In this document: positions 3,019-23,711 of the stretch, in pieces | Layout of the letters: the number at the start of each line of letters is the position of its first letter | How positions within the stretch are numbered: position 1 is the first letter of the stretch | IMG/VR virus record: IMGVR_UViG_3300038701_003139 | Coordinates: 1 to 26,309 of that record | DNA length: 26,309 nucleotides | Origin: a virus | Strand: one strand, 5' to 3' | Program-made: the position numbers and the translations under genes | Notes under the pieces: generated by a model | Seen by the model: the letters and a program-made list of their open reading frames with translations, nothing else | What the model was told of the DNA's origin: nothing | Databases searched by the model: none

Positions 3019-4548
3019 ATGGCTTTTACTGACTTTTGCAAAAACGTAGTTAACTTATTTGAACCTGCCGGGGAATTAGAAAAAGGTGGAAATGTTGATT
3101 TAACAGATGATGGTTGGTATACTTCAGGAGGGGAGAAGATTTCAAAAGATAAAGCCCTTAAATATTCAGCTGTATTTAGAGCGGTTAAATTAATTTCAAC
3201 TTCAGTTGGTAAACTTCCCTTATTCGTTTATGATAGACTTGAACAGGGGAAGCAAAAAGCCCCTTCTTCTCCTGCTTATAATATCCTCAGATATAAACCT
3301 AATGATGAAATGACTGCAAAGATATTTAAGCAAACAATAACAGCTCATGCTTTGCTGCAGGGTTCAGGATATGCTTATATTTTCCGGGATAATGCCGGGA
3401 GGCCTATAGAATTGATTCCCCTGGTTCCTGATGTAACTTATCCGATTAGGCGAAATGGGCAGCTTTACTATATTACCTCTGTTAATGGTGATATGATGAA
3501 ACTGCTCCCGGAAAACGTTCTCCATGTTAGGGGCCTGGGTTATAATGGAATTACCAGTTATTCCCTTTTAGAATATGCAAATATTTCTTTTAGTATGGGC
3601 CTTAATGGGCAAAATTATTCAAATAAATTCTTTGAAAATTCAGCCAGGCCTTCAGTAATTCTTGAACATCCACAAACCTTCTCAGATGAAAAAGCTATTA
3701 CCCGGTTGCGTGACCAATGGAGCAAGCTTTATTCAGGAGTTTCTAATGCTCATAAAACCGCAATATTAGAGCAGGGAATGAAAGCCCATGTATTAACCTT
3801 ATCTGCTAGAGATTCACAACTGATTGAAACTATGAAGTTTTCAATAATTGATGTTGCAAATTGGTTCTCTCTTCCTCCTCATAAACTAGGAGATTCAAGC
3901 AGAACAGCCTATAATTCTTTAGAGCAGGAAAATCAAAGTTTCCTTGATGAAGCTTTGGATGATTGGCTTGTTACCTGGGAAGAAGAATGCAGGGATAAAC
4001 TCTTAACCGAAAAAGAAAAGAATGATGATTCAAGGTTAGTAGAATTTGCAAGGCAAGCATTAGTAAGAGCAGATTTAAAAGGCAGAGCTGAATATTACGC
4101 AAAAGCTACAGCAGGGGCTCCCTGGATGACCGTTAACGAAGTTAGAAACCTTGAAAATGCTAATGATGCAGGAGAAGAATATGATGAAATAATTTTACCT
4201 GCAAACGTATTTGGCTCAACGGAGGAAGAAGAGGAAACAAACAGCACAACAACAGAACCTGAAAACAATTCTGATACCAAACCAAAAGGAACTGAAGGGG
4301 CAATAGCAGCTGCAAGGGGAGCCCTGGAGCATGTATTCCAAAAGATGTTAACACGAATTAGAAAAGATTTTGATAACTATTCAAAAAGAAATGAAGTTCA
4401 TCTATTTACTGAGAACTTTGATTCAAAGCATTCTGAAGTAATTAAAAGAGAAGTTGAACCTGTTGCAAAAGTTGTTGAAATGCTAACAGGGGAAACTGAA
4501 TTAATAAATAAAACAATTAAAAAATTAATGCGTGAGGTTCAAGGATGA
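3019..4548 (+). CDS. Portal protein, HK97 family
   Basis: A 509-residue protein. It has the typical HK97 portal series: AVFRAVKLISTSVGKLPLFV near residues 51-70, then the LLQGSGYAYIFRD strand-turn region, a central stem-helix area with NKFFENSARPSVIL, and the FSLPPHKLG segment near residue 290. Portals form the 12-subunit ring at one capsid vertex through which DNA enters and leaves and to which the tail attaches. The acidic, Thr-rich linker around residues 400-425 (EEEEETNSTTTEP) and the helical C-terminus look like a variable crown or tail. The stop overlaps the protease start (ATGA). The ribosome-binding site is weak (GGGAAAG). Confidence 0.95.
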   Translation: MAFTDFCKNVVNLFEPAGELEKGGNVDLTDDGWYTSGGEKISKDKALKYSAVFRAVKLISTSVGKLPLFVYDRLEQGKQKAPSSPAYNILRYKPNDEMTAKIFKQTITAHALLQGSGYAYIFRDNAGRPIELIPLVPDVTYPIRRNGQLYYITSVNGDMMKLLPENVLHVRGLGYNGITSYSLLEYANISFSMGLNGQNYSNKFFENSARPSVILEHPQTFSDEKAITRLRDQWSKLYSGVSNAHKTAILEQGMKAHVLTLSARDSQLIETMKFSIIDVANWFSLPPHKLGDSSRTAYNSLEQENQSFLDEALDDWLVTWEEECRDKLLTEKEKNDDSRLVEFARQALVRADLKGRAEYYAKATAGAPWMTVNEVRNLENANDAGEEYDEIILPANVFGSTEEEEETNSTTTEPENNSDTKPKGTEGAIAAARGALEHVFQKMLTRIRKDFDNYSKRNEVHLFTENFDSKHSEVIKREVEPVAKVVEMLTGETELINKTIKKLMREVQG

Positions 4549-5198
4549 AAACAGAAAAAAGATATATCAGTTTAAGCAGGGCCGGGATTCAGTTGAGAGC
4601 AAAAGGAGATGAAGAAAATAAAAACCTTGAAGGTTATGCTTCAGTTTTTTATGATGGAACTCCTGAAACAGAATACCAGTTATGGGATGGAGCAGTTGAA
4701 AGGATTGATAAAGCTGCTTTTGATAATGCAATTAAAAATGATGATATTAGGGCCTTAATGAACCATGACCCAAATTTGATTCTAGGAAGGAACAAAGCAG
4801 GAACTTTAACTCTTGAAGTTGATTCTGTTGGATTAAAATATTTAATTGATGTTCCTGATACTCAAGCCGGGAATGATACAAGAACATCAATTGAAAGAGG
4901 AGATGTTTCCGGTTCAAGCTTTTCCTTTATGCCAACAGTGGTTGAATGGTCAGATGATGGAGATAAAGAAATAAGATTGATTAAAGAAGTTCAGCTTTTT
5001 GATGTTGGGCCTGTTACATTCCCGGCATATACTGCAGCAAGTGCTTATGCCAGGGATTCAGAACCTGCAAAAGAAGAGCATGATAATATCAAATCAGAAA
5101 GAGAAGCTGAAAAAGAAAAGCAGGATGCAGAAGAAGCTGCAAAAGCAAAAGCTGATTTAGATTTAGCTGATGCAAAGATAAAAACTTTAGGACTTTAA
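4545..5198 (+). CDS. Prohead maturation protease, HK97 family
   Basis: A 217-residue serine protease of the HK97 prohead (U35) type. The family pattern is visible: GYASVF at 30-35, catalytic His74 in LMNHDPN, the strand LEVDSVGLKY, and the serine motif VSGSSFSF at 121-128, where S125 is the likely nucleophile. FDVGPVTFPAY completes the core. From about residue 170 it becomes a Lys/Glu/Ala-rich helix, probably a scaffold-like extension. It processes the capsid delta domain during head maturation. It is coupled to the portal by a four-base overlap and followed by a regulatory region before the capsid gene. Confidence 0.93.
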   Translation: MKTEKRYISLSRAGIQLRAKGDEENKNLEGYASVFYDGTPETEYQLWDGAVERIDKAAFDNAIKNDDIRALMNHDPNLILGRNKAGTLTLEVDSVGLKYLIDVPDTQAGNDTRTSIERGDVSGSSFSFMPTVVEWSDDGDKEIRLIKEVQLFDVGPVTFPAYTAASAYARDSEPAKEEHDNIKSEREAEKEKQDAEEAAKAKADLDLADAKIKTLGL

Positions 5199-5207
5199 AA
5201 AGAAAAC

Positions 5208-5235
5208 TTGACAATCTTTTTAATTATGCTATTGA
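5208..5235 (+). promoter_or_regulatory. Promoter before the major capsid gene
   Basis: TTGACA (5208-5213) and an extended -10, TATGC with TATTGA (5230-5235), give 16-base spacing. The arrangement TTGACA-N11-TATGCT is identical to that of the portal promoter at 2954. Transcription would begin near 5242, so the three hairpins and the terminator below would all lie in the capsid mRNA leader. Confidence 0.6.
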
Positions 5236-5249
5236 TAAATATTGATTTT

Positions 5250-5267
5250 TTGGAACTTAGTTTCCAG
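5250..5267 (+). ncRNA. CUUAG-hexaloop hairpin 1 (capsid leader)
   Basis: The stem TTGGAA/TTCCAG (four Watson-Crick pairs at the core 5252-5265, then T-A and a T-G wobble) closes the six-base loop CTTAGT at 5256-5261. It is the first of three tandem hairpins with near-identical loops and different stems. Confidence 0.6.
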
Positions 5268-5275
5268 TTTTAAAA

Positions 5276-5291
5276 ATTGGCTTAGACCGAT
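5276..5291 (+). ncRNA. CUUAG-hexaloop hairpin 2 (capsid leader)
   Basis: ATTGG (5276-5280) pairs with CCGAT (5287-5291), with one T-G wobble, and closes the loop CTTAGA (5281-5286). Its 3' arm shares CGAT (5288-5291) with the base of the following terminator, so the two structures are mutually exclusive at that point. Confidence 0.55.
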
Positions 5292-5342
5292 ACAAAAAAT
5301 TTGCAACTTAGATTGCAGGTATTTTTTGTGTCGTTTTTTTTT
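5288..5342 (+). terminator. Terminator or attenuator capped by CUUAG hairpin 3
   Basis: A 13-bp stem, 5288-5300 with 5321-5333 (one T-G wobble), is followed by nine T residues (5334-5342): a strong intrinsic terminator. It is capped by GCAA-CTTAGA-TTGC (5303-5316). It lies between a promoter and the capsid start at 5388, so it may act as an attenuator for capsid expression. Alternatively it only ends transcripts of the portal-protease operon. Confidence 0.8.
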
Positions 5343-5387: not shown

Positions 5388-6677
5388 ATGAAACTGAAAG
5401 AATTGCTAGAAAAACGGAATGAAGCAGCTCAGGGAATGGTTTCCCTCCGGGATAAAATCCAGGAAGAAGGCCGGGCCTTTACTGCTGAAGAAAAAGAAAA
5501 CTTTGATAAAGCATCTGCTGATTATGATTCCCTTGATGAACAGGTTGAAGCTATTAAAAGAGCTGATGATGTTCAGGCCAAAATGGATAAAATGCCGGGC
5601 CGGGATGAAGTCAAAGAAAAAGAAGAAAAAGCCGGGATTTCTGAAGATGATAAACGTTTGGCCTTTAATGGTTGGGTACGTTCTCACCTTCAAGGTGAAA
5701 TCAGGGAAGAAGAGCAGGATGCAATTGCAAAATGCAAACTGAATCCCAATGTTAAACAAATTGATTCCCGGATGCTTGCAACAGCTCCTAAAACCCTGGC
5801 AGAAGCAAGGGCTTTGTCTGTTGGTACTCCTGGTTCAGGTGGGTATACTGTTCCTGAAGGTTTTGTTTATAACCTGGAAATTGCTCTGTTGAAATATGGA
5901 ACAATGCGCAAGGTTGCCGAACTAATGAGAACTGCCTCAGGAAATGCCATGCCATGGCCTACTGTTAATGATACAACTAATGAAGGTGTATTGGTTGCTG
6001 AAGCAGGTGCAATTGCATCTGATGCAGACCCAACTTTTTCTGAAGTTGTTTTTAATGCCTATAAATACACTTCCAAATTTATCAAAGTTAGCTCTGAATT
6101 GCTTGAAGATTCAGCTTTTGATATGGCTGCATTCTTAGGAAGAGCTATCGGAGAACGTTTGGGAAGAGCTCAGAATACAGCTTGCACAACTGGAGATGGT
6201 TCCAGTAAACCTAACGGAATTGTAACAGCTGCAACTTCTCAAGATACAGCAGGTTCAGGAGCTTTTATTGCTGATGATTTGATTGATTTGGTTTATTCTC
6301 TTGATGAAGCTTATGATGAAAATGCTGCCCTGATGATGAACAAAGCAATTTTGAAAGTTGTTAGAAAGTTCAAAGACTCTCAAGGTCAGTATATATGGCA
6401 GCCTTCTTATCAAGCAGGAGAACCTGAAACTATTTTGGGTTATGCTGTTCATAAAAATACTAAAATGGCTTCAACTGTTGCATCAGGAAATAAAGTTGCA
6501 ATCTTTGGAGATTTGAGTAAATATAAAATCAGAGAGGTTAATTCTATTCGCCTGAAACGTTTGGTTGAACTGTATGCAGAAAACGACCAGGAAGGCTTTG
6601 GTGGATTCCTCCGCTTTGATGGTGATTTACTTGATGCAGGAACTAACCCTGTATTAGCCTTGAATGTAAAAGCGTAA
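5388..6677 (+). CDS. Major capsid protein, HK97 fold
   Basis: A 429-residue major capsid protein. Residues 1 to about 100 are a charged, coiled-coil delta domain (KELLEKRNEAAQGMVSLRDK onward), which serves as internal scaffold and is removed by the upstream protease. The mature part starts around LSVGTPGSGGYTVPEGF and has the usual capsid landmarks: MPWPTVNDTTNEGVLVAE (E-loop region), FIKVSSELLEDS (spine helix region), TTGDGSSKPNGI, and the C-terminal LRFDGDLLD. It forms the icosahedral shell. The ribosome-binding site is AAAGGAAAAG. Transcription may start near 5242 and has to pass the terminator at 5288-5342, unless reads come through from upstream. Confidence 0.97.
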   Translation: MKLKELLEKRNEAAQGMVSLRDKIQEEGRAFTAEEKENFDKASADYDSLDEQVEAIKRADDVQAKMDKMPGRDEVKEKEEKAGISEDDKRLAFNGWVRSHLQGEIREEEQDAIAKCKLNPNVKQIDSRMLATAPKTLAEARALSVGTPGSGGYTVPEGFVYNLEIALLKYGTMRKVAELMRTASGNAMPWPTVNDTTNEGVLVAEAGAIASDADPTFSEVVFNAYKYTSKFIKVSSELLEDSAFDMAAFLGRAIGERLGRAQNTACTTGDGSSKPNGIVTAATSQDTAGSGAFIADDLIDLVYSLDEAYDENAALMMNKAILKVVRKFKDSQGQYIWQPSYQAGEPETILGYAVHKNTKMASTVASGNKVAIFGDLSKYKIREVNSIRLKRLVELYAENDQEGFGGFLRFDGDLLDAGTNPVLALNVKA

Positions 6678-22951: not shown

Positions 22952-22980
22952 GTTGACTTGTCAACTAATACCATTAAATT
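22952..22980 (+). promoter_or_regulatory. Promoter with 14-bp palindromic operator, copy 2
   Basis: GTTGACTTGTCAAC (22952-22965) is the exact reverse complement of the 2606 site. TTGACT (22953-22958) and TAAATT (22975-22980) are spaced by 16 bases. The leader then ends in AACAAAGGAGAGAAAG before the ATG at 23026, almost the same as that before 2667. It starts the regulatory and recombinase gene cluster. Confidence 0.6.
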
Positions 22981-23661: not shown

Positions 23662-23711
23662 TTAAGGTTTAACATCTGCCCCTCTTAGCAGGGGCAGCAG
23701 TTAAGGCTTAA
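23662..23711 (+). ncRNA. Long hairpin with CUUAGC hexaloop
   Basis: An upper stem CTGCCCCT (23676-23683) with AGGGGCAG (23690-23697) closes the loop CTTAGC (23684-23689). TTAAGGTTTAA (23662-23672) and TTAAGGCTTAA (23701-23711) flank it at equal distance and can pair at 10 of 11 positions, counting one wobble. No T run follows, so it is unlikely to be a terminator. The loop matches the three capsid-leader hairpins. Confidence 0.7.

Follow-up and report, generated by a model that had tools for sequence, protein, structure and literature searches.

The capsid protein of a phage is needed in hundreds of copies and the neighbouring portal protein and protease in few, and for tailed phages that have a single head operon it is, to our knowledge, rarely understood how this ratio is achieved. 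A related question is raised by the leader that separates the protease and capsid genes in a 26.3-kb virus record (the whole stretch of DNA analysed, hereafter the window): does the RNA of this leader govern the capsid gene behind it? If many uncultured phages carry a conserved RNA switch ahead of their capsid genes, it would directly answer the head-ratio question, and would also reveal a new RNA-binding factor and supply orthogonal regulators. Here, we describe a widespread RNA element before capsid genes, which is probably an on/off switch for virus shells.

In the window, the leader lies between the head maturation protease gene on its 5' side (4545..5198, plus strand; phrog_80, E 9.6e-49) and the HK97-type major capsid gene (5388..6677, plus strand; phrog_10 major head protein, E 3.7e-82). 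From 5' to 3', the leader holds a promoter-like site, two hairpins (H1 and H2), a third hairpin (H3) within a terminator, nine T, a purine-rich ribosome-binding site (RBS) region and the ATG at 5388, with an AAAGGA-type RBS before the gene. The promoter-like site (5208..5235, plus strand), read from the sequence, consists of TTGACA, a 16-nt spacer and an extended -10, TGC-TATTGA. The promoter that the initial annotation had placed upstream of the hairpins is thus upheld in part: its -35 is a perfect TTGACA (5208-5213), but its extended -10 (TGC TATTGA, 5227-5235) is weak, and a strict promoter scan does not list the site. Among the relatives described below, TTGAC-type promoters are enriched in capsid leaders (24/100 vs 2.8 in shuffles).

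Three hairpins with CUUAGU, CUUAGA and CUUAGA loops on differing stems had been noticed here, and all three are present, with loops at 5256, 5281 and 5307 of the plus strand. H1 (or P1; 5250..5267, loop 5256-5261) reads TTGGAA-CTTAGT-TTCCAG, with the pseudotriloop C-UUA-G-U; H2 (or P2, the candidate antiterminator; 5276..5291, loop 5281-5286) reads ATTGG-CTTAGA-CCGAT, with the pseudotriloop C-UUA-G-A; and H3 (5299..5320, loop 5307-5312), which lies within the terminator loop, reads ATTTGCAA-CTTAGA-TTGCAGGT. They form the window's only triple of hexaloop hairpins with five common loop bases within 70 nt, and such a triple, with any loop, arose in 8 of 20,000 Markov sequences of the leader's length and composition. 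Moreover, the window has fewer CTTAG copies than expected (22 vs 55, both strands), and its four CTTAG-capped hexaloop hairpins, three of them in the leader, all lie on the plus strand and outside genes. The folding check proposed for the leader gave a mixed outcome: the leader folds better than its shuffles (z -2.73) and the core pairs of H2 have a pair probability of about 0.9-0.94, but at H1 an A/U-rich alternative is predicted to be more stable than the hexaloop (hexaloop pair probability about 0.19). The support for H1 consequently comes from comparison with relatives, and not from its own folding energy. The fourth hairpin (23676..23697, plus strand, loop at 23684; CTGCCCCT-CTTAGC-AGGGGCAG) carries the same UUA triplet on an eight-pair stem; it stands isolated between ORFs of 211 and 49 aa, near small HTH and integrase-like genes, with neither tandem partner nor terminator, and is possibly a second target of the factor that would bind H1 and H2, its membership being uncertain.

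Capsid homologues were gathered from viral and genome contigs, among which the scans counted several hundred relatives beyond those used here; the 247 leaders obtained fell into 128 clusters, 100 of which, with at least 90 nt between genes, make up the non-redundant set. The nearest relative (L002), whose capsid is 72% identical, keeps the same order of elements and a U-tract at the end; its promoter aligns as TTGACA-N16-TATAGG, its H1 has a wholly different stem that is still paired (GAGAC/GTCTC, loop CTTAGA), its H2 is nearly unchanged (TGG-CTTAGA-CCG kept), and the counterpart of H3 is GCGA-CATAGT-TCGC. Farther away, the same layout carries other loops, such as CAAAG twice (L013 and L040), CCUAGC with UCUAAC (L009) and UCCAAU twice (L098). 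Most members of the L064 group have CCCAGA as their P2 loop and L096 has UCCAAU, so that both bases of the loop pair have changed at a single site; P2 stems of the L052 group read CCAGG/CCTGG, with CCAGT/ACTGG in L081. The earlier reading of a conserved loop on changing, paired stems therefore needs revision: stems do change and yet pair in relatives, but the letters CUUAG are not conserved across them. Apart from L002, the matches to a double CUUAG pattern (L034-L036) lay inside coding sequence and were set aside as chance, and no relatives came from the patterns of a terminase query. Five of the six cultured or named relatives (SfV, 16-3, Halomonas H4907, Labrenzia V1 and a Syntrophomonadaceae phage) leave no room for such a leader, with about 10-75 nt between protease and capsid; in the sixth, Pontimonas phiPsal1, the capsid gene is preceded by about 200 nt.

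What is conserved is a rule rather than a word. The signature is a hexaloop, Y1-NNN-R5-N6, in which positions 1 and 5 are Watson-Crick paired (a pseudotriloop); often two such hairpins occur in one leader, and the triplet is matched between the hairpins of one leader and differs between phages (UUA, AAA, CCA, CUA, CGA, GAU, GGC, UGG). Among hairpins with five or more pairs in the 100 leaders, hexaloops are the clearest enriched loop class (91 vs 42.7, sd 5.6), four- and five-base loops showing smaller excesses. Positions 1 and 5 covary when no loop letters are chosen beforehand (C-G, 44 vs 6.0; U-A, 17 vs 3.2), and the mixed pairs C-A and U-G stay at chance in the same leaders. Positions 2 and 3 agree within a leader in 18 of 28 pairs, against 8.1 when permuted and with none as high in 20,000 permutations, whereas in hexaloops without a 1-5 pair such agreement is not clearly above expectation (9 vs 6.3). 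Furthermore, identical six-base loops on different stems occur in seven leaders (0.07 expected). A first definition of the motif, with A at position 4, proved too narrow when an unbiased search for equal loops returned the triplets GAU, GGC and UGG.

Matched tandem pairs are also tied to one place in the genome: 16 occur in 41 kb of sense-strand leaders and three in about 2 Mb elsewhere (~1 Mb, both strands), a density about 259-fold higher in sense-strand capsid leaders. Since part of the motif had been read from the first leaders, later ones were tested apart, and among 41 later-fetched leaders outside the motif-defining set a matched pair was found in five (0 in 100 shuffles). Two exact-pattern scans that took no account of the capsid, run over 2.9 million viral contigs, matched only contigs already in the capsid-leader set. 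These data bear on whether the repeats act in DNA, as a cruciform, operator or packaging signal, or are chance companions of an ordinary terminator. Inverted repeats can act in DNA and the terminator itself is ordinary, but Y-N-N-A-R-N loops are strand-specific (35 vs 2.2 in shuffles, and 2 on the opposite strand), stems contain G-U pairs, and the triplet matching is far beyond chance, so that we regard this explanation as highly improbable, the weakest of those considered.

The motif is scattered across most of the capsid tree, with 11 triplet changes among the labelled leaders, and even sister capsids may differ (L063 and L091, with UCA/CCA vs CGA/CGA). Two observations on its spread speak against an attenuator: 53 of the 100 leaders have no hairpin meeting even the looser Y1-R5 rule, with the strict matched pair found in a minority only, and a close relative (L037, capsid 62% identical) carries in its last 100 nt tandem UAAU tetraloop hairpins (stems GCTGGC/GCCGGT and ATGTC/GACAT) with no U-tract. 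This UAAU pair is another matched-loop solution, and one further leader (L102) has a CGAC loop twice, outside the looser rule; with matched loops of this kind, the rule may be too strict, or the class wider than it allows. Separately, the capsid leaders of L103 and L109 are alike, long and structured, with ACGCG hairpins and a ATCGTGCG repeat and no copy of the motif, and they appear to be another conserved capsid leader RNA.

The intrinsic terminator of the window (5288..5342, plus strand) has 13-bp arms, CGATACAAAAAAT and ATTTTTTGTGTCG (5288-5300/5321-5333), around H3, followed by nine T. It had been claimed that the third hairpin sits inside this terminator and that the second shares its foot, and both points are borne out: the 3' arm of H2 (5288-5291) doubles as the terminator foot, and as both structures use these bases they are mutually exclusive. 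H2 is able to form first. In folding of growing transcripts it is found for RNA ends 5292-5300 and again 5320-5328, ends 5304-5316 give another fold, and the terminator appears from 5332; the terminator is accordingly predicted to displace H2 when RNA polymerase is beyond about 5332. A fold constrained to keep H2 is 8.3 kcal/mol less favourable than the terminator fold, so the terminator should win when no factor is bound.

The same overlap recurs in relatives, where the 3' arm of a motif hairpin lies inside the 5' arm of the terminator in 11 of the 23 leaders having both (the window and 10 others); in about half of the 23 the two do not overlap, which counts against an attenuator. In a test that ignored U-tracts, the arm of the second hairpin has a downstream partner (combined p 4.5e-4, including the window, for which the automatic choice unfavourably took H3 as P2 and was kept), whereas the P1 arm has none (p 0.33). 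Competing helices also occur where no U-tract follows (L283 and others). In the last 123 nt before the capsid gene of L115, the second hairpin, with a CCCAGT loop, has as its competitor a helix GTGGCTCC/GGAGCCAC, in which the RBS is paired (GGAGCCAC before the ATG), and this masking suggests a translational version of the control.

Taken with the layout of promoter, tandem hairpins and terminator that recurs among relatives, and with a last hairpin that often overlaps the terminator foot, these results lead us to favour, with moderate confidence, the reading that the capsid mRNA leader holds a transcription attenuator, under the control of an RNA-binding factor acting in trans. An attenuator of capsid expression with a loop-binding factor was what the initial annotation had proposed; its architecture has held up, but its action is a prediction from structure. 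RNA polymerase would start near 5208-5235 and transcribe H1 and then H2. When the factor is missing, the strong terminator (5288-5342) would capture the 3' arm of H2, H2 would dissolve, and most transcripts would end after about 100 nt, short of the capsid gene. The factor, probably a dimer or a two-headed protein, would read the same triplet (UUA in the window) on two tandem hairpins; with H2 so held, the base pairs abutting the U-tract would be lost and the polymerase would read into the capsid gene. If the factor is a dimer that contacts both loops, the presence of two hairpins and the agreement of their triplets would both be accounted for.

Promoter, matched hairpins and terminator would also yield a stable RNA of about 100 nt, and a repeated binding site is typical of sponges. 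The short terminated RNA might thus itself be the product, an abundant decoy with two or three hairpins that, in the manner of CsrB-type RNAs, titrates an RNA-binding protein of host or phage. Such a sponge needs neither an arm shared between the last hairpin and the terminator nor a constant position before the capsid gene, and we consider it improbable.

For the attenuator, what the factor might be was approached through gene content. Head-module genes alone were found in common among the motif-bearing phages, which is a point against the attenuator reading and leaves as candidates a protein of the head or of the host, or else a phage protein diverged beyond detection. In this context, negative feedback has to be weighed: RNA-phage coat proteins repress by binding a hairpin, and a free head protein, perhaps the capsid protein, could bind the matched loops and favour termination or block ribosomes. 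The head module as sole common gene set, the matched pairs almost exclusively before the capsid gene and the RBS-masking helix of L115 fit such feedback. Yet binding at P2 should open the terminator and not form it, so the architecture favours activation; moreover, capsids that have diverged widely are found with the CCA triplet, and the triplets of the sister capsids named above differ. Feedback therefore seems unlikely to us, if somewhat less so than a sponge, and within the attenuator reading we expect the factor to raise capsid expression, a sign deduced from the modelled folds. Matched triplets suggest specificities differing by three loop bases. More tentatively, and at somewhat under an even chance, the triplet may be a private three-letter RNA address in a large class of HK97-type phages, read by a rapidly evolving phage factor, with both triplets changing in concert so that each factor knows its own leader.

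The closest known layout is the dual-hairpin RNA bound by ANTAR proteins (EutV, NasR, AmiR), which has two small hexaloop hairpins, a variable linker and a P2 overlapping the terminator, both loops having A as their first and G as their fourth base (PMC3369931). Capsid leaders likewise have two tandem hexaloop hairpins with similar loops, on stems from 3 bp up, a linker of 7-31 nt and bases common to P2 and terminator; in both, some cases probably act on translation. A host ANTAR protein acting on a diverged RNA of this kind would account for the likeness, and one host genome (G007, L114) does encode the domain. Nevertheless, the loops follow Y1-NNN-R5-N6 with a 1-5 pair, having C or U at position 1 and usually A at position 4, the triplet varies between phages, the target is a phage capsid gene, and a third hairpin sometimes lies in the terminator. 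The ANTAR domain (PF03861) was not found in the window and 12 other phage records, which may be incomplete and whose hosts are mostly unidentified, nor in the host genomes G001 and G002. The leader thus shares the tandem hexaloops and the P2/terminator overlap with ANTAR RNA and departs from it in loop rule and regulator, and control by a host ANTAR protein is very improbable, although marginally less so than an element acting in DNA.

The loop itself recalls the iron-responsive element (IRE), a pseudotriloop in which a C-G pair spans the loop, three bases are shown to the protein and the sixth is pinched out (PMC8466369). Both are hexaloops with a Watson-Crick 1-5 pair (here C-G and U-A are enriched) and a free base 6, and by analogy the freedom of that base and the C-G/U-A exchange are consistent with a pseudotriloop. 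The IRE has a fixed AGU and a bulged C, whereas the capsid-leader loops allow U-A, vary their triplet (UUA in the window), cap continuous stems, and stand in tandem in a setting of bacterial attenuation; the element is not an IRE by its triplet. In RAT antiterminators of the BglG/LicT type, a protein-held RNA hairpin overlaps the 5' arm of a terminator, but that is one hairpin with internal loops, in contrast to matched pseudotriloop hairpins. The phage antitermination sites lambda nut and HK022 put are RNA hairpins that let polymerase pass terminators; they modify it for distant terminators, whereas here the last hairpin excludes one adjacent terminator.

Attenuation by hairpins is thus already known; new here are the pseudotriloop, its matched but variable triplets and the use of a capsid gene as target. 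The earlier statement that no named class has this arrangement agrees with Rfam, where no family passed the gathering threshold in the window or its relatives save two unrelated tRNAs (the best lax matches falling far below), and with a literature search, most subscription journals lying outside it, in which no such capsid leader was described; the element is apparently undescribed so far.

Two other sites of the window are recorded here. Before the portal gene (2917-2990), a GC-rich terminator (GCCCCTCAAATGAGGGGC and a T-run) is followed by TTGACA-N16, with TATGC ahead of the -10 as in the capsid promoter. In addition, the palindrome GTTGACNNGTCAAC occurs exactly twice (2606-2619 and 22952-22965; none expected), each copy shortly before a gene that has AACAAAGGAGAGA ahead of it, and the two look like an operator pair.
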